This document shows, piece after piece, positions 8,341 to 29,121 of a stretch of 32,342 nt of DNA (position 1 is its first letter; every line of letters begins with the position of its first letter). Both the position numbers and the translations under genes were made by a program. Source of the DNA: a virus. Under the pieces are notes generated by a model. That model ran no database searches. It was not told where the DNA came from and worked only from the letters and a program-made list of their open reading frames with translations. The DNA lies in IMG/VR virus record IMGVR_UViG_3300042402_001193, positions 1 through 32,342 of that record; one strand, 5' to 3'.

Positions 8341-9044
8341 ACGATGGTAAAGTAGTCAAAGGGTCCAATATGATTGCCTCTATCAAGGTAGAGGGCAATT
8401 ACTATCCGGTATTTTGTGCCAAGTCATGCTCTTTTGAGCTGACCAATGAAATAATAAACAGAACCTCTGTCAATGATGGCTTATTCACAAAAAGGCGAAT
8501 AAGGAGAACCGATTGGTCTGGCTCTGCCTCTGGGGTGCTTGTAACAAATAATGATGGAAATCGTTACAGCCCTTTCTATCTTATTCAAGAGTCAGTCAGA
8601 AGGGCAGCCCTTGAGTGGCAGTTTGAGTTCACTAACTTAGATGGGGATATCAGAACTATTGAGGGCGAGGCATTAATACAAAACCTACCTATTTCTGGGG
8701 ATGTGCAATCATTCGTACAATGTACCGTAAACATTATCGGCACTGGAGCCTTTTTAATGGATGTAAGCCCCTCTAGCCCATCTTTGGATGAGGATGTCGA
8801 TTCAGACTACTGGGTAACGGTAGCAGGGCAAAACGCAATACAAGGCTTGTCAGTTTATGGCAAGACCTTACAAGGCAAGACCATTCTGGGAATAGCCAGA
8901 GAGGGTACTGTCTATGATCCTATCACTACGGGAAGTCCATCAAATCGGACTGCATTATTTAATAGTGCATTAGGAAGGATTACTTTTGATTCAAATATAC
9001 CTTTTAATCCAGGCGAGACAGTCTGGGCAATGTGGAAGGACTAA
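8337..9044 (+). CDS. Tail tip protein with C-terminal duplicated module
   Basis: A 235-aa protein translationally coupled (ATGA) to the large tail tip gene. The N-terminal 150 residues are beta-rich, with 'IASIKVEGNYYPVFCAKSCSFELTNE' suggesting a tube-like fold. The last 65 residues contain 'AREGTVYD' and 'GRITFDSNIPFNPGETV'; the same elements recur in the next gene. No enzymatic motif is seen. Role as a tail structural component is inferred from position only. Confidence 0.65.
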   Translation: MNDGKVVKGSNMIASIKVEGNYYPVFCAKSCSFELTNEIINRTSVNDGLFTKRRIRRTDWSGSASGVLVTNNDGNRYSPFYLIQESVRRAALEWQFEFTNLDGDIRTIEGEALIQNLPISGDVQSFVQCTVNIIGTGAFLMDVSPSSPSLDEDVDSDYWVTVAGQNAIQGLSVYGKTLQGKTILGIAREGTVYDPITTGSPSNRTALFNSALGRITFDSNIPFNPGETVWAMWKD

Positions 9045-15011: not shown

Positions 15012-15508
15012 TGCGTGTTTTTGTGTTGGCTGGGTTATTGCTAATCGGTTGCAATCCGGGTAAGCAACTTTCTAAGGCAGAGGCAAGGCTGGCTCAGGCT
15101 GGCCGCCTCCCAGCTATTTGTGCAGAGAGATACCCGGTTAAAGACACGACTTACATTAAAGACACACTTGTAAAGATTGACACTTTCTTGTCTGGGGAGT
15201 ACATCTTTGACACAGCCCGAATCAATGATACCTTATACAAGGTTAAGTATAAACCCGTAGTCGTGTATAAAACAAAATACGTAACTAAGGTAGAAAGGGT
15301 AGAAGATGTAGCCAAGATAGAAGCCATGCGTGCCTTTGTGAGCCAATTAGAAGCTAATAGAGCCACTTTATCGGCTCAGTTGGCAGAATATAAGGACAAG
15401 GCCAAGACCCGCTTAAATTGGCTTATTTTGGCTCTCTGTGTCGCCTTTGGGTTTGCTATTCGTAAACCAGTGATGGCTTTAATCAATTATCATCTATCAA
15501 AATGGTAA
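15011..15508 (+). CDS. Probable unimolecular spanin (u-spanin)
   Basis: The 165-aa protein has an N-terminal lipoprotein signal with lipobox LLLIGC (Cys14), a periplasmic region of about 115 residues rich in beta strands and then a coiled helix (about 90-130), and a C-terminal transmembrane helix (about 135-150, 'LNWLILALCVAFGFAI') followed by a basic tail. An outer membrane lipid anchor plus an inner membrane helix in one chain is the defining layout of u-spanins such as phage T1 gp11, which fuse inner and outer membranes in the last step of Gram-negative lysis. It sits between holin and endolysin and overlaps both genes. There is no separate i-/o-spanin pair. Confidence 0.78.
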   Translation: MRVFVLAGLLLIGCNPGKQLSKAEARLAQAGRLPAICAERYPVKDTTYIKDTLVKIDTFLSGEYIFDTARINDTLYKVKYKPVVVYKTKYVTKVERVEDVAKIEAMRAFVSQLEANRATLSAQLAEYKDKAKTRLNWLILALCVAFGFAIRKPVMALINYHLSKW

Positions 15509-15921
15509 CCTCAGCCCAAGCCTTAAAGAAGTACGGACAGCCCGATCAGGCCAACCCTCACATGGTCCTTTGGGATGTGCCAGTTTATTTAGAGATAGGG
15601 GTTATTCCAAAAAGGGTATATTGCAACAAAGACATTGTCGGTCCTTTAGAAGCCGCTTTTAAGGCTCTTATTGATACTGGTCATGTAAGCGAGTTAAAAA
15701 CCTGGGATGGCTGCTTTAATATCCGTAAGAAAAGGGGTCTCAGTTCTATGAGCCTCCATTCATGGGGGATAGCTATTGATGTCAATGCCTTTGAAAATGG
15801 CCTTGGCAAAGAGCCCAAACTAAGTGCTGGCTTTGTCAAGTGTTTTACTGATAATGGCTTTGACTGGGGTGGTGTTTGGACCCGAAAAGACGGCATGCAC
15901 TTTCAATTAGCCAAAATTTAA
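15502..15921 (+). CDS. Endolysin, peptidase M15 (L-Ala-D-Glu or D-Ala-D-Ala type)
   Basis: A 139-aa zinc peptidase with the M15 motif SLHSWGIAIDVN (ligands His86 and Asp93) and the third ligand in DGMHFQ (His133); 'FDWGGVW' lies between them as usual for the M15_4 group. These enzymes cut the peptide crosslinks or stem of peptidoglycan. No signal peptide is present, so it depends on the holin for export. It overlaps the spanin by 7 bp and is the last gene of the late operon. Length is normal for a single-domain enzyme, with no separate wall-binding domain. Confidence 0.92.
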   Translation: MVTSAQALKKYGQPDQANPHMVLWDVPVYLEIGVIPKRVYCNKDIVGPLEAAFKALIDTGHVSELKTWDGCFNIRKKRGLSSMSLHSWGIAIDVNAFENGLGKEPKLSAGFVKCFTDNGFDWGGVWTRKDGMHFQLAKI

Positions 15922-19217: not shown

Positions 19218-19247
19218 CAAATATACGAAAAAAAAATCAATCTACCA
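19218..19247 (-). promoter_or_regulatory. Internal leftward promoter
   Basis: TATATTTG on the minus strand (19225-19218) is an exact TAnnTTTG match. A TTTTGG about 20 bp upstream (near 19241-19248) serves as a -33 box, with a run of nine T in between. It starts transcription just after the DnaA-like gene and would serve the 46-codon ORF, the unexplained segment and the endonuclease. Confidence 0.65.
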
Positions 19248-19662
19248 AAACTAATTTACCTGAGTAATCCACAAAGGTTATCTTTTGATGTGATTTAACC
19301 CTACTTAGTTTCATAGAAATGCCCAAATCAGAGGCTAAGTCTATGACTTTCAAATAATAAGGATAAAACTTAGGGTCTTCAGTAGCTATGTAATGGTCAA
19401 TTTTTGTTCTGTAAATACTCATAGTGGAATGGTCTTTGTATCCTACTAGGGGTGCTATCTCTACAAGTTTCATGGGGCAATGCTGGTAAATAAAGTAAGA
19501 CAAGGACATTCTAATCTCTGAAAGCCTTACTTGTTCGCCATGTTTATTTTTGGTTATCTTCCAGTGGTTTCTTCTCTTTACTTCTTGTAACTGATCTAAA
19601 GTAATCCCATAATAGTTACAAACCTCATCAACTAACTTTATTGCTTGTTCTCGGGTATTCAT
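19237..19662 (-). CDS. DnaA domain IV-like DNA-binding protein (putative replication initiator)
   Basis: A 141-aa protein. Residues about 48-90 fit the DnaA C-terminal DNA-binding domain: a helix 'SLSYFIYQHCPMKLVEIAPLVG' followed by YKDHSTMSIYRTKI, in which GYKDHST corresponds to the GGRDHST signature that reads DnaA boxes. No AAA+ domain is present. The phage may use it to recruit host initiation proteins to a phage origin or to compete with host DnaA. It overlaps the HTH gene upstream by 4 bp and is followed by an internal promoter. Confidence 0.75.
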   Translation of the reverse strand: MNTREQAIKLVDEVCNYYGITLDQLQEVKRRNHWKITKNKHGEQVRLSEIRMSLSYFIYQHCPMKLVEIAPLVGYKDHSTMSIYRTKIDHYIATEDPKFYPYYLKVIDLASDLGISMKLSRVKSHQKITFVDYSGKLVLVD

Positions 19663-19853
19663 TTTGATAATTTGTAAGCTGCAAAGGTTTTATTGTCTTT
19701 AGTAATGTAATTGGTCCAGATAGTGTGCCCTTGATTTCTAAGGTCTGCAATCCTAGCGGCTAACCTAAAGCAGCCAAACTTGTTTAAGGCATCAATGGCG
19801 GTGATTTGTTTACCTGATTTAAGATAAATCAAGATTCGCTGTGTTTGTGTCAT
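19659..19853 (-). CDS. Small helix-turn-helix protein (HTH_39-like)
   Basis: A 64-aa winged-helix protein: 'TQTQRILIYLKSGKQITAIDALNKFGCFRLAARIADLRNQGHTIWT', with the pattern of the HTH_39 family common in phages (recalled family pattern). Helix 2 and 3 are ITAIDALNKF and CFRLAARIADLRNQG, and the wing follows as 'YITKDNKTFAAYKLSK'. It is the best candidate for an early regulator or a DNA-bound replication accessory. It overlaps both neighbours. Confidence 0.78.
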   Translation of the reverse strand: MTQTQRILIYLKSGKQITAIDALNKFGCFRLAARIADLRNQGHTIWTNYITKDNKTFAAYKLSK

Positions 19854-20073
19854 GTCTGTGGTTTTTAAGTGGTGAATATAAATGGGTAAATTTTTCTACT
19901 GTGTAGTCAAAGCCATGTCTGGTTAGCTTTTCGCATACCCAGTTGTAATCCTCATCAGTGTGGTGGATGGCATGCTGTGGGAATAAAGTAGTTCTAATAA
20001 CTGGGTCTTTCTTACCCAAGATACCTATAAACTGCCCATTCCATCTAAAACGGTAGGTCGTTATCAGTTCCAT
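19819..20073 (-). CDS. Hypothetical protein
   Basis: An 84-aa protein with 'YRFRWNGQFIGILGKKDPVIRT' at the start and an acidic/aromatic stretch 'HTDEDYNWVCEKLTRHGFDYTVEKF'. It overlaps the end of ninG by 29 bp; its first codons lie over the ninG sequence encoding the DLPF tip. No other in-frame Met exists. Function unknown. Confidence 0.55.
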   Translation of the reverse strand: MELITTYRFRWNGQFIGILGKKDPVIRTTLFPQHAIHHTDEDYNWVCEKLTRHGFDYTVEKFTHLYSPLKNHRHDTNTANLDLS

Positions 20074-20464
20074 CTTTTGCGGTTTTTAGTAGTGTGATGT
20101 AAAGAGTAATGATATCCTCTAAGTCTGCTCTATCCCATTTGTGGACCTTAGTTCGGTTATTCTCTAACCACTCTACCCTTTTCTTGCCAATCTTTAAGAG
20201 TAGGTGCTTGCGATAACCAACTAAATGAAACTCATCAAAGCCATTGCATCGTTGGCATTCTCCGTTGACATTGTCCTCATGAAACCTAAGAAAAGACCCC
20301 CCTTTGACTGGCACATAGTGTCCAGCATTCATGGACTCCACTGGCAAAGTCTTAAAACAACTAATGCAAGTAAAATATCCATCTTTAGAATCTCGCTGCC
20401 TAATGTAAGCATTAAAGACTTTTTGTGCTTTTTCTGTCAGTCTTGGTAGAGTAACCTTTCTCAT
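20045..20464 (-). CDS. ninG: NinG/Rap-like recombination nuclease
   Basis: A 139-aa protein of the lambda NinG (Rap) type: an N-terminal helix, a zinc-binding pair CISC (Cys33, Cys36), 'NAGHYVPV' (His49), 'ENDVNGECQRCN'-like second pair (seen as HEDNVNGECQRCN, Cys70 and Cys73), then 'WLENN'. In lambda this protein is a structure-specific nuclease that resolves recombination intermediates. It ends in GTDNDLPF, the same kind of acidic C-terminal tip as SSB, which is not a feature of lambda NinG. It sits in the recombination operon with the annealing protein and SSB. Confidence 0.88.
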   Translation of the reverse strand: MRKVTLPRLTEKAQKVFNAYIRQRDSKDGYFTCISCFKTLPVESMNAGHYVPVKGGSFLRFHEDNVNGECQRCNGFDEFHLVGYRKHLLLKIGKKRVEWLENNRTKVHKWDRADLEDIITLYITLLKTAKDGTDNDLPF

Positions 20465-20797: not shown

Positions 20798-21055
20798 TTA
20801 GAAAGGGAGGTCTTTATCTGATCCATTGCTTTGGGGTTTGTAAGTGTCAACTACGGTATTCCAACCGCCTCCGTCTTTGCGTTCTGTGATGCTGAGCTTT
20901 AGTTGCTTGTTGCCTTGGTACTCTGTCATCAAATCTGGGTTCTCTTTAAGCCATTGGAATAGCTCATTAGGGCTGATAATAATTTGACCTTTAACAAACG
21001 AGGGGGCGTTTTCTCTAGGTGCAAAAACCCGAACACCTTTGGGGAACTTTGTCAT
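20798..21055 (-). CDS. SSB-like single-stranded DNA-binding protein
   Basis: An 85-aa protein, shorter than bacterial SSB. It begins 'GVRVFAPRENAPSFVKGQIIISPNELFQWL', and has beta strands 'KQLKLSITERKDGGGWNTVVDTYKP' consistent with a small OB fold. It ends with GSDKDLPF, matching the SSB C-terminal tip (D-D-x-P-F) that docks partner proteins. It follows two recombination genes and precedes NinG. Function as ssDNA binding is a confident inference from tip and context, less so from the domain itself. Confidence 0.75.
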   Translation of the reverse strand: MTKFPKGVRVFAPRENAPSFVKGQIIISPNELFQWLKENPDLMTEYQGNKQLKLSITERKDGGGWNTVVDTYKPQSNGSDKDLPF

Positions 21056-22871: not shown

Positions 22872-22955
22872 TTATTGGCAAATGGTGTCTTGTAAAAGGC
22901 CTATCACATAGGCAACCGCTAATAAAGCGAGTAAAAGTTTGATTGGTGCTTTCAT
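22872..22955 (-). CDS. 27-aa single-helix membrane peptide
   Basis: MKAPIKLLLALLAVAYVIGL begins this 27-aa ORF, which ends LQDTICQ. It has a positive N-terminus and one strong transmembrane helix. It is the first gene after the leftward promoter-like site and ends 14 bp before the next start. Its simple layout suggests an early expressed membrane peptide, for example for exclusion or host signalling (inference). Too short for homology-based certainty. Confidence 0.55.
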   Translation of the reverse strand: MKAPIKLLLALLAVAYVIGLLQDTICQ

Positions 22956-22979
22956 GGTTAAATCGTTTGGTTATGGATG

Positions 22980-23010
22980 CAAGATATAACACTTTTACAC
23001 ATTAACCAAA
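22980..23010 (-). promoter_or_regulatory. Putative leftward early promoter
   Basis: On the minus strand TATATCTTG (22988-22980) is a near match to TAnnTTTG, with TTTGG (23010-23006) about 18 bp upstream as -33 box. It is divergent from the promoter at 23038, and both lie in a 94-bp gene-free stretch. The -7 match is imperfect, so regulation by an activator is possible. Confidence 0.4.
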
Positions 23011-23013
23011 AAT

Positions 23014-23045
23014 ATTTTTAATTTATTTTTATTTGCCTATATTTG
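23014..23045 (+). promoter_or_regulatory. Rightward promoter, probably leaderless transcript
   Basis: TATATTTG at 23038-23045 is an exact match to the -7 consensus. The -33 region (around 23014-23018) is a T-rich stretch without a clean TTTG. The ATG of the AT-hook protein lies at 23050, only 4 bp after the box, so the expected start of transcription falls on or next to the initiation codon. Confidence 0.6.
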
Positions 23046-23049
23046 TGAT

Positions 23050-23280
23050 ATGGAAAAGCAGAAACGAGGTAGAAAGCCAAAGCCTGCACATCTGAAAGTG
23101 CAAATGGTATCAGCCTACCTAACAAGAGAACAGAAAGAGTTGATTTACAAAGAGTTCGGTAACTTAACAAATGCTGTAAAAATTCACATTTTAAGCAAAT
23201 TCAATGGACATCGTGATAGCTTTGGGAACTGGCAGCCGGTGGATGGACAACGAGCTGAGGTATGCCCTAAGGTCGATTGA
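23050..23280 (+). CDS. AT-hook-bearing small DNA-binding protein
   Basis: A 76-aa basic protein. Residues 3-11 (KQKRGRKPK) contain an AT-hook core RGRKP. Residues 17-53 resemble a ribbon-helix-helix pattern: a strand 'KVQMVSAYLT', helix 'REQKELIYKEFG', turn 'NLTN', helix 'AVKIHILSKF'. This suggests a transcription regulator, perhaps of the divergent operons it sits between. The last 25 residues overlap the next gene by 77 bp, which may mean that the protein is shorter or that the overlap is real. Confidence 0.6.
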   Translation: MEKQKRGRKPKPAHLKVQMVSAYLTREQKELIYKEFGNLTNAVKIHILSKFNGHRDSFGNWQPVDGQRAEVCPKVD

Positions 23281-23893
23281 GAAGCACCTCAAAGGCCATA
23301 CTGGTCGAATCTTACTAATAGGTCAAAAGCCTAAATGGGTAAAGAATGTCGATCACTATCCAATCCCAGATGTGCCAGGCCGCAAGAATTTCAGCATCTT
23401 TCAAAAGATACTAACTGGTTGTGAAATGACAAATACCCCGGATTTTATCTTTTGGAATGATGACCACTTTCTAATTAAAGACCTAAGAGTAGATCAGTTT
23501 AAGTATTGGTATGATGGTTTGTGCAGTCAATGGGCCGAGAAAGCGACTGGCCTCTATAAAAAAGCTATCACAAACACAAGTAACCTACCAGGTTGCAATG
23601 ACCTTTACACAGATATCCATGTGCCGATAGTATACAATAATGCCCGATTTGGCAAGCTCTTGGACTTGGATTGGAAAAAAGAATATGTCATCAAATCAGC
23701 TTACACTAGAAACGAGGAGGGCGGCTTTGAATACATGGCTGACTTTAAGTTGAGCAATCAATACAATCTAAGCACTTGGCAAGGTAAGTTAGTGGGCAAG
23801 ACTTTTTTTAGTATTGGTTCTTATACTATAAATGCAGATTTTAAGATATTAATGCAGAACCTTTACCCAGATAAGTCAATCTACGAAAAATGA
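23204..23893 (+). CDS. Stealth-like sugar-phosphate transferase
   Basis: A 229-aa protein that begins MDIVIALGTGSRWMDNELRY and continues ALRSIEKHL. This matches the Stealth family start (DIVYTWVDGSD...ELRYSLRSIEKH), and 'FIFWNDDHFLI' (residues about 82-91) matches its NDDxF motif. Stealth proteins are hexose-1-phosphate transferases of capsule and teichoic acid synthesis. Length is short for the full family, so it is a core-only form. The first gene of a glycan module; it overlaps the AT-hook gene by 77 bp and the next gene by 4 bp. Confidence 0.7.
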   Translation: MDIVIALGTGSRWMDNELRYALRSIEKHLKGHTGRILLIGQKPKWVKNVDHYPIPDVPGRKNFSIFQKILTGCEMTNTPDFIFWNDDHFLIKDLRVDQFKYWYDGLCSQWAEKATGLYKKAITNTSNLPGCNDLYTDIHVPIVYNNARFGKLLDLDWKKEYVIKSAYTRNEEGGFEYMADFKLSNQYNLSTWQGKLVGKTFFSIGSYTINADFKILMQNLYPDKSIYEK

Positions 23894-24861
23894 GAATCTT
23901 TATACAAAGCCCGAACATTAACTCTAGGCATGGCGGCATAAGAGTCATTAACGAATGGGCAAACAGATTACAGTCTTTTGGGCATAAGGTTATTTTATAC
24001 AACCAAGCTGGTCCAGTTAGATGCGATTGGATGACCATAACTTGTAAGATTGTCAACACTACTAGCTTATTGGACAAATCTGATCTTTTGATAGTAACTA
24101 GCCCGCATGGAGCTTTTTTATTGTCTAAAGATAAGCCAGTCAAAAAAGTAGTCTTTTTGCAAATGCTGGAGCATCTGTTTAATATAACCAACAAGTCATT
24201 TTTTGATAGTTGCTTAGCTTTATACACTACTAAATATCCTTTAATCTCAATAAGCCAGTGGAATATCAGGTTTTTACAAAATAAATACCAAAGAAAGGGC
24301 CCGATACACTATGTAGGCAATGGGGTAAATCTGGAAGACTTTACCATAAGCGATAAACCAAAAGAGGGCAAAATAGCTTTACTAGAATCGCCAGAGCCTA
24401 CTAACATGGCTAAAGACACCGAAAAGATATCAGTTCAAGTGGCTAAGAACTTAATAGAAAAGGGCTGGACAATAAAAGGCTTTGGGTTACAGGCAGCCAA
24501 AGACAATATCTATGCAGAATATTTTACTAAGCCGAGCTTAGAAACCATGAATCGTTTATACGATGAGGCAACCATTATGATAAAGGCTACTAGGTACGAT
24601 GCAAGATCAACAGCTCCTTTAGAAGCTGGCACAAAACGTACCGTAACGATTCGGGGAATAATAGAGGGTGATGATGACCTAAATGATAGCAACTCTTTTA
24701 AGACTGGCTACTCTTATGACAAGTTATTTGATGCCACAATGTTTGCAATCAATAACCCAGAGCAATTAAAGCAACGGTCTGAGAATATTAAAGCCCATGT
24801 GCAGACTTATACTTGGGATTACTGGATGTATAAAATTAATCAAATCTTATGCAGCTTATAG
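23890..24861 (+). CDS. Glycosyltransferase, GT-B fold (family 4-like)
   Basis: A 323-aa protein with 'SPNINSRHGGIRVINEWANRLQSFGHKVILY' at the N-terminus (the GGI/V-R-V start of GT4 enzymes), a middle 'HYVGNGVNLEDF' motif where GT4 enzymes have V-x-N-G-V-D, and a C-terminal donor-binding region with 'EAGTKRTVTI' in the place of the E-(x)7-E site. The 'E-G' position around residue 243 is reduced to a single Glu. It transfers a sugar to an unknown acceptor. It overlaps the Stealth-like gene (ATGA) and the methyltransferase. Confidence 0.8.
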   Translation: MRIFIQSPNINSRHGGIRVINEWANRLQSFGHKVILYNQAGPVRCDWMTITCKIVNTTSLLDKSDLLIVTSPHGAFLLSKDKPVKKVVFLQMLEHLFNITNKSFFDSCLALYTTKYPLISISQWNIRFLQNKYQRKGPIHYVGNGVNLEDFTISDKPKEGKIALLESPEPTNMAKDTEKISVQVAKNLIEKGWTIKGFGLQAAKDNIYAEYFTKPSLETMNRLYDEATIMIKATRYDARSTAPLEAGTKRTVTIRGIIEGDDDLNDSNSFKTGYSYDKLFDATMFAINNPEQLKQRSENIKAHVQTYTWDYWMYKINQILCSL

Positions 24862-25289
24862 TTGGATGCGGTCCTAATTGGGCCAAAAGAGAGAATGACA
24901 TTTTTTTAGATGTAAGACCATTTGACAATGTCGATGTGGTTCACGACCTTAATATAACCCCTTGGCCTTTTAAAGATAACAGCATGACAGAGATATCTGC
25001 TATTCATGTGGTGGAGCATCTTAATAACTTGCTAGATTTTATGAATGAAAGTTATCGCATACTACAAAAAGGGGGTGCATTATACATAGAAACCCCAGAA
25101 GCAGGGGCAAACCCAGACTTGCAATTTGCTGATCCTACTCATGTAAGATGCTATCGAAAGCATACTTTCATAAACTATTTTACCTTATCTGAGGCTTATA
25201 AGTTTGGCTACACTGACAAACTCTGGGCAATCATGCACATAGAAAGTAGAGATGGAAACCTTATTGTCCACTTAACACCCATAAAATGA
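24849..25289 (+). CDS. Class I SAM methyltransferase, short
   Basis: A 146-aa Rossmann-type methyltransferase: a GCGP motif (VGCGP), 'FLDVRPFDNVDVVHDLN' (acidic ends of strands 2-3), 'ISAIHVVEHLNNL' (the HVxEH post-strand 4 motif) and 'YRILQKGGALYIETP'. These are the motifs of type 11 small-molecule or sugar methyltransferases. Lacking N- and C-terminal additional domains, it is a core-only enzyme. The context makes a sugar hydroxyl or amine the likely target. Confidence 0.82.
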   Translation: MQLIVGCGPNWAKRENDIFLDVRPFDNVDVVHDLNITPWPFKDNSMTEISAIHVVEHLNNLLDFMNESYRILQKGGALYIETPEAGANPDLQFADPTHVRCYRKHTFINYFTLSEAYKFGYTDKLWAIMHIESRDGNLIVHLTPIK

Positions 25290-25900
25290 GAATCTTAATT
25301 GTTGCCCTTGAATACTTAGAACCAGAATGGCTAGAGACCCTAAAATGTATCGAGGAAACTGGGTTACCTTATGAGATAGTCAGTCGGGATGGTGTGGGCA
25401 ATATGTCAAGGGCTTACAATACAATCATAAACAAAAACAAAGAGGCTGATTATTATTGGTTTGTCTCAAATGTAACTTTTAAGCCACAAATGCCTTATGA
25501 ATTGGCTATGGATTGCGAAAGGCTTGGCTGGGCTGGCATACATCCGGCTATGTCCACCTCGGATCATAGATTTCAATGGCCTAATGGACACGAACCCAAA
25601 GAGACCCCTTTTATAGAATGGACCGCCCCTATGGTTAATGCAGAGGTCTTTAACATTAATCCCTTAGACGAAATGCTGCCTTACTACTATATGGACCTTG
25701 ACTGGTGTCATCGGGTCAAGCCTAAAAGGGTGGGAGTGCTTCATAGCCAAGTCATCGGGCATACCTATTTAAGGAACAAAAAAGAGCATCCCATCGGTCA
25801 GCTAAGAAAGCAGCTCAGAAACTACTGGACCCCAATCAGTCAAAGACACATGCTGCAAAAATGGGGTAAAAATTGGCAACAAGATTTATGGCCTAAATAG
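25286..25900 (+). CDS. Glycosyltransferase, GT-A fold (family 2-like)
   Basis: A 204-aa protein in ATGA overlap with the methyltransferase. It has 'MRILIVALEYLEPEWLETLKCIEETGLPYEIVSRDGVGNMSRAYNTII' as the nucleotide-sugar binding start and 'YYYMDLDWCHRVK' (about residues 137-149), which fits the C-terminal D-x-D-x-C/R region of GT2 enzymes. The usual central D-x-D is weak ('NVTF' follows). It probably acts with the GT-B enzyme upstream. Substrate unknown. Confidence 0.65.
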   Translation: MRILIVALEYLEPEWLETLKCIEETGLPYEIVSRDGVGNMSRAYNTIINKNKEADYYWFVSNVTFKPQMPYELAMDCERLGWAGIHPAMSTSDHRFQWPNGHEPKETPFIEWTAPMVNAEVFNINPLDEMLPYYYMDLDWCHRVKPKRVGVLHSQVIGHTYLRNKKEHPIGQLRKQLRNYWTPISQRHMLQKWGKNWQQDLWPK

Positions 25901-26105
25901 GTTAAAAATATTCCATAATTGTTACTTAGAGTACAAATATTCGACACAATTCCGAACTAATGTCGATAATTTGCCAAAAATGGTGACAATTACTTTACAA
26001 ATTCGCAAATGCAAAAGCATATAAAGCTCAATAATGAGCCATAAAAGGCACAAAAGCATATAAAATAAGCTATAAAACGAATATTAACAATAAAAAGTGC
26101 AATAA
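25901..26105. other. 205-bp AT-rich intergenic region with inverted and direct repeats
   Basis: No credible ORF is seen. The left part has TCGACA (25941-25946) and TGTCGA (25961-25966) as an inverted repeat with a 14-base spacer. The right part has a direct repeat and a palindrome described separately, and runs of ATAAA spaced about one or two helical turns apart. The layout (AT-rich, iteron-like repeats, inverted repeats) suits a replication origin or a control region for the second half of the glycan module. Confidence 0.55.
26012..26064. repeat. Direct repeat CAAAAGCATATAAA (two copies)
   Basis: Copies at 26012-26025 and 26051-26064 are identical over 14 bp with starts 39 bp apart. Between them GCTCA-ATAA-TGAGC (26026-26039) is an inverted repeat. 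Two long repeats around a palindrome suggest binding sites for a dimeric protein. Confidence 0.7.
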
Positions 26106-26726
26106 ATGACAACTTTAGAACTACATGGAATTTACCATGAATTATCCTTTTGGCAGCAATTTGTAAAAACAGACCGCTTTTTACAAGGCTGGGTAAAGAA
26201 AGTAAAAACCCCAGAACTGAATCAAGAGGTAGCCGACTTTATTTTATCTGTGCCTAATCAGAAAGTATTAGATGTAGGCTCAGGGGTCTGCTCAATACTA
26301 AATGGATTAGTAAATGTAACCCCATGCGACCCTTTGGGAGACCTTTACAAGCTAGTGTTTGACTTTGAACGGCATAAGCTAAAAGCTCCACTACCCTACC
26401 CAGCAGAGGAATTGCCCTTTAAGAATGAGTTTGACATAGTACATATCTCAAATGCCTTAGATCATACTCAAGAGACAAGAAAGGCCTTAGATTTGTTATT
26501 ACAAGCAGTTAAGCCCGGAGGGTATCTAATCGTGCAAGGTTTTTTTAACGAGGCAACACATGAGAACTGGCAAGGCTTCCATCAGTGGGATATTTCATTA
26601 GATGATCATGGCTGCATGGTTATCTTAGGCAAGAAGTCAAAAACCATTATTGCATGGCCTCCACATAAGTTTGCAACAGTCAATTTATTAGGTCGAGATT
26701 GGTATTATTGGATAATAAAAAAATGA
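26106..26726 (+). CDS. SAM-dependent methyltransferase
   Basis: A 206-aa protein with an N-terminal helical cap (residues 1-50, 'HGIYHELSFWQQFVKTDRF'), then 'VLDVGSGVCSIL' as SAM motif I, 'DIVHISNALDHTQETRKAL' and 'AVKPGGYLIVQGF' as the later core strands. This resembles glycan- or lipid-modifying methyltransferases that carry such a cap. It starts a second block of the module, after the repeat-bearing intergenic region, and overlaps the next gene as ATGA. Confidence 0.8.
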   Translation: MTTLELHGIYHELSFWQQFVKTDRFLQGWVKKVKTPELNQEVADFILSVPNQKVLDVGSGVCSILNGLVNVTPCDPLGDLYKLVFDFERHKLKAPLPYPAEELPFKNEFDIVHISNALDHTQETRKALDLLLQAVKPGGYLIVQGFFNEATHENWQGFHQWDISLDDHGCMVILGKKSKTIIAWPPHKFATVNLLGRDWYYWIIKK

Positions 26727-26941
26727 TAGTTCAAACAATACACGAAATAGTAAACCCCTTTGATGTAGAGACACCATTGGGCTATGGGGTAGCCTTATTT
26801 ATGATAGCCGGATCAATACATTCCAATCCTCAGTTTATTATACGATTATATGATACCGGAATAGTAAGGACAGTTGACCAAAATGATATAAGAATATACG
26901 GCAATCCCACTACTGGAGAAAATCTAAAACCTATACAATGA
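26723..26941 (+). CDS. Small hypothetical protein
   Basis: A 72-aa beta-rich protein: 'VQTIHEIVNPFDVETPLGYGVALFMIAGSIHSNPQFIIRLYDTGIVRTVDQNDIRIYGNPT'. The start at 26723 gives an ATGA overlap. The pattern of short strands suggests a small beta-barrel, and similar proteins are common in phages next to sugar enzymes. Function unknown; overlaps the HAD gene by 4 bp. Confidence 0.65.
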   Translation: MIVQTIHEIVNPFDVETPLGYGVALFMIAGSIHSNPQFIIRLYDTGIVRTVDQNDIRIYGNPTTGENLKPIQ

Positions 26942-27375
26942 CAATATGTTGTGATATCGATGGCTGCTTAACAGATGGCAAAATCTGGGTTGACCATCAA
27001 GGTAACATCATTAAGTCCTTTAATAACAAGGACATCGGAGCCATTAAAGAGCTAATCTCAATGGGCTATCAGGTGCATTTAGTAACCGCAAGCAGTTGGC
27101 CTGGAGCAGAGCAATACCTACGGAGGTCTGGGGCTCAATTGCACATTATACGAAATAAGGAGACCATCCCTTTTGACTATCAGATAGCCATTGGGGACTC
27201 GGCATGGGATATCCCTATGTTATGTAAGGCAAAACACTTATTTTGTCCAGCAGATGCATCTTTAGAGGTTAAGTGTTTAGATGGTGTCCATCCACTAATG
27301 ACATCAGGAGGGCAAGGAATTATGCTTGAATTGGTCCGCATACTTAGTCAATGGAATACTGATGTTGATAAGTAG
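26938..27375 (+). CDS. KdsC-like HAD phosphatase
   Basis: A 145-aa HAD phosphatase: catalytic 'CCDIDGCLTDG' (Asp6, Asp8), 'FNNKDIGAIKELISMGYQVHLVTAS' (motif II Thr50) and 'IGDSAWDIPMLCKA' (motif IV Asp87, Asp91), then 'PADAS'. The sequence DIDGxLTDGxI...NxKDxxAI is typical of KdsC and of KDN-9-phosphate phosphatases, cap-less and tetrameric, that act on 2-keto-3-deoxy sugar acid phosphates. In this phage it closes the glycan module and would complete a nonulosonate or KDO-like precursor. Its stop lies inside the palindrome at 27368. Confidence 0.82.
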   Translation: MTICCDIDGCLTDGKIWVDHQGNIIKSFNNKDIGAIKELISMGYQVHLVTASSWPGAEQYLRRSGAQLHIIRNKETIPFDYQIAIGDSAWDIPMLCKAKHLFCPADASLEVKCLDGVHPLMTSGGQGIMLELVRILSQWNTDVDK

Positions 27376-27390
27376 TACTACTTATATTTG
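27365..27390 (+). promoter_or_regulatory. Late (structural) operon promoter
   Basis: TATATTTG at 27383-27390 is an exact -7 consensus match. The -33 box is poor: only TTGA at 27365-27368, with a spacing of 14 bp, shorter than the usual 19-20, which would fit a promoter that needs an activator. It lies upstream of the whole packaging, head, tail and lysis operon. Confidence 0.7.
27368..27385. promoter_or_regulatory. 18-bp perfect palindrome, putative late-promoter operator
   Basis: ATAAGTAGTACTACTTAT is its own reverse complement over all 18 bases. It lies between the -33 region and the -7 box, overlaps the first three bases of the -7 box at 27383, and covers the HAD stop codon. A dimeric protein bound here would block the late promoter. 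Confidence 0.7.
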
Positions 27391-27446
27391 GTAGATTGCT
27401 AAAAATTTCGTATATTAGGGGGTGAATAAAGGGTAAAAAATCAATG

Positions 27447-27479
27447 AGCCTACAGTCCTTCGGGGTTGTGGGCTTTTTT
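27447..27479 (+). terminator. Strong intrinsic terminator in the late leader (UUCG loop)
   Basis: AGCCTACAGTCC (27447-27458) pairs with GGGTTGTGGGCT (27463-27474) over 12 bp with three wobbles around a TTCG tetraloop, and T runs to 27479. It lies between the promoter at 27383 and the first late gene at 27484, so the default transcript is a leader of about 80 nt. Late expression would need antitermination or partial read-through. Confidence 0.85.
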
Positions 27480-27483
27480 ACTT

Positions 27484-27624
27484 ATGCCGTACAAATCAAG
27501 AGCCCAAGCAGCCTACTTTAACATTAACAAGAAAAAGCTCGAAAAGCAAGGAGTTAATGTGGAGGAGTGGAATAAAGCCTCCAAAGGCAAGAAACTCCCT
27601 AAGATGGCTAAGAAAAAAAAGTAA
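27484..27624 (+). CDS. Small basic phage protein beside the terminase
   Basis: A 46-aa protein with MPYKSRAQAAYFNINKKKLE at the start and a basic end (LPKMAKKKK). The ATG lies 5 bp after the terminator T-run. The stop overlaps the small terminase ATG (TAATG). Its 'SRAQAAYFN...KLEKQGVNVEEWNKASKGKKLP' pattern is often found just upstream of terminase genes in phages. Function unknown; DNA binding in packaging is a possibility. Confidence 0.75.
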   Translation: MPYKSRAQAAYFNINKKKLEKQGVNVEEWNKASKGKKLPKMAKKKK

Positions 27625-27971
27625 TGTCATCACTCACCACCATAGACTGGGATGTTGTAGGCGAATACCTAATGGCAGGATGCTCTGGAGTAGAAGTAGC
27701 CGCACACCTCGGTATCCACGAAAACACTCTGTATCAACGATGTAAGTCGGATTTAGGGGTCGATTTTGTGGCATTTAAGCAAGAAAAGCAAGCATCAGGA
27801 GAAAGCCTTTTGAGAAAGGTCCAATTTGATGCAGCAATCAAAGATAAAGACCGAGCTATGCTTATCTGGTTAGGCAAGCAAAGGTTAGGTCAGAAAGAAA
27901 AAGGCGAGCAAGATATTAAGGTTGATGGCGGCATTAACATAGTATTCAAGCCAGCCAATGAGACAAGTTGA
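27624..27971 (+). CDS. terS: Terminase small subunit
   Basis: A 115-aa protein. The N-terminal region (about 12-45, 'VGEYLMAGCSGVEVAAHLGIHENTLYQRCKSDLG') is a homeodomain-like HTH found in small terminase subunits, followed by a helical oligomerisation segment and 'WLGKQRLGQKEK', and a flexible tail ending 'VFKPANETS'. It recognises phage DNA at the packaging site and hands it to the large subunit. It overlaps the large terminase by 14 bp. Confidence 0.85.
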   Translation: MSSLTTIDWDVVGEYLMAGCSGVEVAAHLGIHENTLYQRCKSDLGVDFVAFKQEKQASGESLLRKVQFDAAIKDKDRAMLIWLGKQRLGQKEKGEQDIKVDGGINIVFKPANETS

Positions 27972-29121
27972 TATTCGATATACAAGTGTCTTTGAAAGAA
28001 ACTTACTAGCCTATCAGGCAAAAAGATTTAGGGTAATAGCCAACCAAGGCTCTACTCGATCTGGTAAGACTTATTCAATTTCACAACTTTTAGCTCTTTT
28101 CATACCGCACAAGGAAAAAGTAACGATTTCGGTGGTTAGTCCATCCTTACCCCATTTGAAAAGGGGTGCTAGGCGAGATATCCTAAAGATACTCGAAGAT
28201 GCTGGCATCTACTCAGATGACAATTTTAACAAGACTGACAATGTCTATCATTACCCTAATGGCTCTTATATAGAGTTCTTTGGGGCTGAGGACTCGGGTA
28301 AGGTAAGAGGACCAGGCAGAGATATCTTGTATATAAACGAGGCCAATCTTTTGCCCCACTCTATTTACCAGCAGTTAGCTCTAAGAACCAAGCAGACCAT
28401 CTTTTTAGACTTTAACCCAGTCGATGAGATGAGCTGGGTGTACGATGTCGCTGATAGAGATACTAACCTCTTAATCCACTCAACCTATAAAGACAACCCA
28501 TTCCTGCCAAGTGAGCAGGTAGCTGAGATTGAAAGTTTGAAAGATGCAGACGAGAATCTTTGGAAGGTCTTTGGGTTGGGAGAAAGGGGTAAGTCCTCAG
28601 AGATTATCTACACCCATTGGAGACAAGGTCAGTTCCCGGATGAGTGTGAAACGGTTTATGGCTTAGACTTTGGCTACTCAGTACCAACTGCTTTAGTCAA
28701 GGTGGGGTTTCACGAGAAACAAACCTTTGTCAAGGAGATGCTTTACGAAACTAAGCTAACTACCACTGATTTAATAGAAAGGCTAAAGGTACTAAACATC
28801 AAGAGGTCCGATGAGATTTACTGTGATGCTGCCGAGCCTAAGACTATTGAGGAACTGGTCAGAGCTGGGTACAATGCCAAGCCAGCCGAAAAAGATGTCT
28901 ATGCAGGCATCCAAAAGGTAAAGAGCCAGCCTTTAATCGTTACCCCTGACAGCACGAACCTGATTAAAGAGATTAGGTCCTACAAATGGAAGGTCGATAA
29001 AGATGGCAAGGTTCATGCAGACGAGCAGCCAGTCAAGATGTGGGATCACTTATGCGATTCGATGCGGTATGCAATTTACACAAAACTAAACAAGCCCCGA
29101 TTCGAGGTTATGGCTTGGTAA
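27958..29121 (+). CDS. terL: Terminase large subunit
   Basis: A 387-aa packaging motor of the Terminase_3 type. The ATPase has Walker A 'QGSTRSGKT' (about residues 30-38), Walker B 'DILYINEAN' (122-130) and a coupling motif after 'FLDFNPVDE'. The RNase H-like nuclease has 'GLDFGY' (Asp237), 'CDAAEP' (Asp290) and 'WDHLCDSMRY' (Asp363/Asp367). All catalytic residues are present. It overlaps the small subunit and is followed after 10 bp by the portal gene. Confidence 0.97.
   Translation: MRQVDIRYTSVFERNLLAYQAKRFRVIANQGSTRSGKTYSISQLLALFIPHKEKVTISVVSPSLPHLKRGARRDILKILEDAGIYSDDNFNKTDNVYHYPNGSYIEFFGAEDSGKVRGPGRDILYINEANLLPHSIYQQLALRTKQTIFLDFNPVDEMSWVYDVADRDTNLLIHSTYKDNPFLPSEQVAEIESLKDADENLWKVFGLGERGKSSEIIYTHWRQGQFPDECETVYGLDFGYSVPTALVKVGFHEKQTFVKEMLYETKLTTTDLIERLKVLNIKRSDEIYCDAAEPKTIEELVRAGYNAKPAEKDVYAGIQKVKSQPLIVTPDSTNLIKEIRSYKWKVDKDGKVHADEQPVKMWDHLCDSMRYAIYTKLNKPRFEVMAW

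Follow-up and report, generated by a model that had tools for sequence, protein, structure and literature searches.

We analysed a DNA window from an uncultured phage (the whole stretch, 32,342 nt, circular with a 128-bp end repeat) and found that its late genes lie behind a control point, as the first-pass annotation had proposed, at which a regulator site, a promoter and a covarying terminator are kept as one cassette despite genes inserted behind it. The genes behind the terminator, which the annotation had given as everything from packaging to lysis, include a small ORF, terS, terL, portal, head, tape measure and endolysin (15502-15921). A regulator had been expected among the unassigned small genes, and a plausible candidate is present there, a stand-alone DnaA domain IV protein. 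Activation of the late promoter by this DnaA-like protein is our best reading and moderately probable, the direction of the effect being deduced from sequence. No late-gene regulator is known to us in phages of this kind, and none turned up in full-text searches of open-access papers. One gene, two predicted binding sites and one predicted start site can now be named (Table 1); if the reading is true, these phages have made a transcription switch out of the DNA-binding domain of a replication initiator.

Table 1. Features of the late control region and of the early operon in the window
Feature	Position	Strand	Evidence or remark
DnaA domain IV protein (stand-alone, 141 aa), proposed to activate late and repress early genes	19237..19662	-	Pfam, fold
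Second late-promoter core, without box, TTTGGTAGATTG...TTTCGTATATTTG	19218..19249	-	25/32 identical to 27387-27418
HTH_39 winged-helix protein, rival regulator, adjoining the DnaA-like gene	19659..19853	-	Pfam E 3.8e-14; all clades
Second box TGTGTAAAAGT	22991..23001	-	In promoter region of the early operon holding the DnaA-like gene; conserved in relatives
DnaA-box-like proposed activator site TGTTGATAAGT	27363..27373	+	41/41 cassettes carry TGTKNATAAGT
18-bp palindrome	27368..27385	.	Kept only as ATAAGT-N6-ACTTA, clade A
-33 element TTTG, part of the previously noted TATATTTG box	27387..27390	+	TTTG in 40/41 cassettes, 19-20 nt ahead of the -7 box
-7 box TATATTAG	27411..27418	+	TAHHTTTG consensus except A at -6
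Predicted start (27423/27424) and conserved A-rich leader	27423..27445	+	Leader kept in clades A-C, recognisable in L071 and L073
Predicted intrinsic terminator, 13-pair hairpin, UUCG loop, then T6	27446..27479	+	Covariation
First late gene, 46-aa small ORF of unknown function	27484..27624	+
terS	27624-27971	+	After the 46-aa ORF
terL	27958-29121	+	After terS

The late promoter and its upstream box

Relatives were collected with a terL search in IMG/VR, which returned 80 loci, 78-99% identical. They were sorted by late promoter region into clades A-D, informal working labels used without a tree: clade A is the window's type, clade B comprises L058-L061, L063 and L064, clade C comprises L065, L066, L069, L111, L112, L177 and others, and clade D comprises L070, L071, L073-L075 and L077-L080. 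Together with contigs picked out of the viral data by a pattern scan, the terL loci yielded 41 distinct cassettes after de-duplication over a 130-base stretch; at a loose 85% identity these form 8 groups and are far from 41 independent cases. The collecting pattern required TATATT and a G-rich start, and for the contig scan also AGCC, so the invariance of these bases is in part built in, whereas neither the box nor the -33 element was a requirement. The promoters and terminase relatives of the phage group point to Bacteroidota hosts. Among named phages, terL relatives at about 39-41% identity were found in Bacteroides-type phages, but there was no near DNA match and no match to the DnaA-like protein. 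Scans of genome contigs for prophage relatives with the DnaA-like alignment and terL, a weak search with two peptide patterns per scan, found none.

The first-pass annotation had described a palindrome overlapping a TATATTTG box and read it as a repressor-type operator covering the promoter. Both elements are present: the box lies at 27383-27390, and the palindrome, ATAAGTAGTACTACTTAT, is perfect, 18 bp long and the longest in the window. Since about 0.16 perfect 18-bp palindromes are expected by chance in such a window, the palindrome alone is weak evidence. TAnnTTTG occurs at the place of the box in 33 of the 41 cassettes; it was rejected as the -7 box, being missing in the other 8, whereas a -33/-7 reading fits 40. 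The conserved promoter is TTTG-N19/20-TATATTAG, in which TATATT, partly owing to the collecting pattern, and the final G of the -7 box are invariant in the alignments. The -7 element of F. johnsoniae is TAHHTTTG, with 4-5 nt to the transcription start (PMC6847099), so late transcription is predicted to start at 27423/27424, giving a leader of about 56 nt rather than the 80 nt proposed earlier. In a comparison with sigma-ABfr-type promoters of Bacteroidota, the -7 box was TATATTAG in the window and the consensus TATATTTG in clade C. The A at the nearly invariant -6 position of TATATTAG would suit a promoter that works poorly unaided, although the clade C box agrees with the consensus.

Copies of the promoter core that carry no box favour the -33/-7 reading. 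One is at 19218-19249, the best other core match in the window (the next best was 21/32), and another is in L073. Separately, members of clade D (L071, L073, L074, L077 and G030) carry an inverted repeat, approximately ATACTAAA-N3-TTTAGTAT, in the -33/-7 spacer and overlapping the -7 box; such a spacer repeat was seen in this clade only.

With TATATTTG better read as the location of the -33 element and the -7 box placed at 27411-27418, the promoter begins only downstream of the conserved site. This is the usual position for activators, and the site is better read as a proposed activator site than as an operator over the -7 box. The window's copy is the reverse complement of a TTATNCACA-type box with one mismatch. 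The box is located at -48 from the -7 box in 32 cassettes and at -38 in 9, and the two positions differ by exactly 10 bp, one DNA turn, which would suit a protein that has to meet polymerase from a single side. Clade D contributed further box-bearing late promoters, at -38.

Of the palindrome, ATAAGT-N6-ACTTA was present in 31 of the 32 clade A cassettes, and the perfect 18 bp in only 3 of 41. The HTH_39 protein or a ribbon-helix-helix-like protein encoded at 23050 (judged by eye) might bind ATAAGT-N6-ACTTAT as a repressor operator; the inverted repeat is kept in clade A, and both genes are conserved in all clades. However, clades B, C and D keep only a single DnaA-type box, and the centre of the palindrome is not conserved, so we regard this explanation as quite improbable.

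Another reader of the box could be the full-length DnaA of the host, which would tie late transcription to the replication state of the host, with the phage protein competing or unrelated. Many boxes are perfect TTATNCACA sites (TGTGNATAA), as this would predict. Against it, an extra conserved GT extends the box core (ACTTATNCACA), the window's variant departs from the consensus with a T where DnaA boxes have G (a departure that weighs against the DnaA-like protein of the phage as well), and a phage-encoded DnaA-type reader was present in every testable relative; host DnaA as the regulator is thus highly doubtful. The G or T at the fourth box base, compared by eye with changes in the phage protein, gave no clear link, and G003 (L009) and G013 (L040) combine near-identical DnaA-like proteins with TGTT and TGTG boxes. 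Canonical TTATNCACA sites also occur in structural genes at window positions 8481, 10197 and 11850, probably by chance. A replication origin was rejected as an explanation, because a box cluster was absent in the genomes examined.

The leader and the terminator

The predicted UUCG-loop terminator noted earlier is present as a GC-rich hairpin (27446-27475) with T6 at 27474-27479, and it ends 4 bp before the ATG at 27484. Among 32 distinct sequences, 99.5% of cells were paired and 4 of 12 pairs had changed on both sides; this pairing was reached by 0 of 500 shuffles, and slid versions dropped to 22-62%. A scan of 12 kb gave 16 terminator-like sites, among which this hairpin ranked first in strength; it was also the sole strong plus-strand terminator found at window 22900-28000. 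The leader fold gave a z of -4.0. A leader peptide was rejected, since nearly all relatives have ACG in place of the ATG at 27443, and no known RNA family was found at the locus at E values up to 1.

In clades A-C, promoter, leader and terminator precede the first late gene, whichever gene comes first, and terL starts about 548, 818, 1523 or 1746 bases beyond. At the clade A loci with distant terL (-818, -1523 and -1746), a methyltransferase-like gene (by eye) and other genes are inserted, always behind the terminator. The late promoters of clade D keep the box and have no terminator in front of the late genes. In L071 and L073, a promoter-leader-terminator unit directly follows the HAD gene and is followed by repeats and convergent genes, with a box-bearing late promoter about 1.8-2 kb beyond the unit. 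A covariance model found one copy per genome, L071 and L073 being among its training sequences. Given these arrangements, the unit does not appear to require late genes behind it, and control of the late genes does not appear to require the unit.

Two explanations concern the role of the terminator, and their likelihoods overlap with those of the alternative regulators, terminator role and regulator identity being separate questions. The hairpin may mainly end the upstream HAD/glycosyltransferase operon as an insulator, or the unit may make its own short RNA, with late genes expressed by leaky read-through. This would suit L071 and L073, where the terminator stands at a similar distance after the HAD stop, with a promoter and a similar leader, and where convergent genes separate the unit from the late promoter; the scarcity of other strong plus-strand terminators around it also agrees. 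In clades A-C, however, the late promoter is upstream of the terminator, and late transcripts must therefore be affected too. We hold this explanation possible, with less than even confidence.

Alternatively, control could resemble that by Q in lambda and 21, which shares with clades A-C the order late promoter, short leader, intrinsic terminator and late genes (PMC6606751): the late promoter would fire and most transcripts would end at 27479, leaving a short leader RNA. Polymerase would be released by an antiterminator of the phage, for which the DnaA-like protein and HTH_39 are possible candidates. Consistent with this, promoter, leader and terminator are kept together before different first genes, the hairpin covaries, the gap that separates terminator and first gene in the window can hardly hold a promoter, and the conserved start, GGGGGTGA, might act as a signal for engagement. 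The gene transfer agent of C. crescentus, moreover, pairs an activator with an antiterminator (GafY/GafZ; PMC11150451); it likewise has a late-type cluster, activator sites at the promoter and a downstream terminator, and it has been shown by experiment to use an activator and an antiterminator acting with IHF, whereas no antiterminator was identified in the window. On the other side, clade D has late promoters with a box and without a terminator. Scans of early proteins with Pfam or PHROGs, not every gene being run against both, gave no Q-like hit. The Q site is between -35 and -10 (PMC6606751), whereas the box conserved here is at -48/-38 relative to the -7 box, on the upstream side of the -33 element. 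Control of this type is in our view unlikely.

Two minor observations were made on the surrounding DNA. Arrays of TTTCCACGG / AAAAATTCCACTGG repeats lie between the HAD and convergent genes in clade D (L071 from about 3258, L073 from about 845, L074 and G030), and Phocaeicola phage BV200P1 (L162, about 15805-15850) has a hairpin and T run before a small gene ahead of terL, with TACTTTTG inside.

The DnaA-like protein and the early operon

The protein of the window matched Pfam Bac_DnaA_C with an E value of 1.2e-6 and a score of 28.8, below the gathering cut-off of 31.5, so that it is missed by the cut-off alone. All 15 aligned relatives matched PF08299 at E<=0.01 (best 5.5e-7). The AlphaFold model (pLDDT 79) matched DnaA-DNA complexes in the PDB, 3pvp (Z 11.1) and 1j1v (Z 10.7), with the next unrelated match at 4.5. 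The D-H-S/T-T DNA-reading motif was conserved, D77, H78 and T80 being invariant with S or T at position 79. In the HMM alignment, S or A, not Arg, occupies the position of E. coli Arg399, a minor-groove contact, and an invariant Arg stands three residues on. By profile and model the product is a DnaA domain IV, with DNA binding predicted; the Pfam score under the cut-off and the residue at the Arg399 position count against our reading.

The DnaA-like gene was found in 20 of 49 records searched, the remainder being mostly short fragments. In a gene-by-gene comparison of 13 genomes or contigs, all with the neighbouring early genes (e.g. NinG) had it, and it was retained down to 29-38% identity while the box stayed. 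It lies downstream of ninG, close to the place of Q in lambda. Because HTH_39 (19659) and the ribbon-helix-helix-like protein (23050) are conserved across the same clades, co-occurrence alone would not single out the DnaA-like protein as the regulator. NinG and a small protein (20045-20464 and 20798-21055, minus strand) both end in an SSB-like acidic tip (DNDLPF and DKDLPF).

In contigs with the DnaA-like gene, a box was found in the early promoter, some 3-5 kb upstream from the gene itself, a second at the late promoter where the contig reaches it, and almost none elsewhere. A perfect TGTGNATAAGT forms the early box of clades B-D and directly precedes TATATTTG. Clade A has TGTGTAAAAGT instead, with A for T, and there the -7 box is harder to assign, the candidates being TATCTTGC downstream or TATTTTTG upstream. 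Under either assignment the predicted box overlaps the early promoter, and binding should repress there. Whole genomes held 2-3 box matches, with 1.1-2.3 expected by chance, so the box count proves nothing and the argument rests on position and conservation.

Proposed circuit and known systems

In the circuit that we propose, the DnaA domain IV protein, whose gene comes late in the early minus-strand operon, would accumulate, bind the box at 27363-27373 and activate the late promoter from one helix face. The same protein would bind the second box in the early promoter and switch off the early operon and its own synthesis, with the net effect of early off and late on. The terminator would block read-through into the late genes both from the upstream co-directional operon and from weak basal late transcription, and activated polymerase might pass it by partial read-through or promoter-linked antitermination. 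A broader role, in which the protein is a master switch that shuts the early genes, opens the late genes and perhaps also governs terminator passage and occupies host origin boxes, is rather unlikely.

To our knowledge, p4 of the Bacillus subtilis phage phi29 is not a DnaA-domain protein. It is nevertheless a precedent for a single early protein doing both jobs: as in our proposal, it activates a low-consensus late promoter and represses early promoters (PMC3100819). Early and late genes are on opposite strands in both phi29 and the window. p4 works with the nucleoid protein p6, and for the DnaA domain IV reader of the window the dual action is predicted; unlike phi29, the window has Bacteroidota-type promoters and a terminator after the late promoter. 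With DnaA domain IV and its boxes (PDB 1j1v and 3pvp; PMC5835720) the phage system shares the fold, the DNA-reading motif and the box core, whereas the phage protein has no ATPase domain and its boxes stand singly at promoters rather than in an origin cluster.
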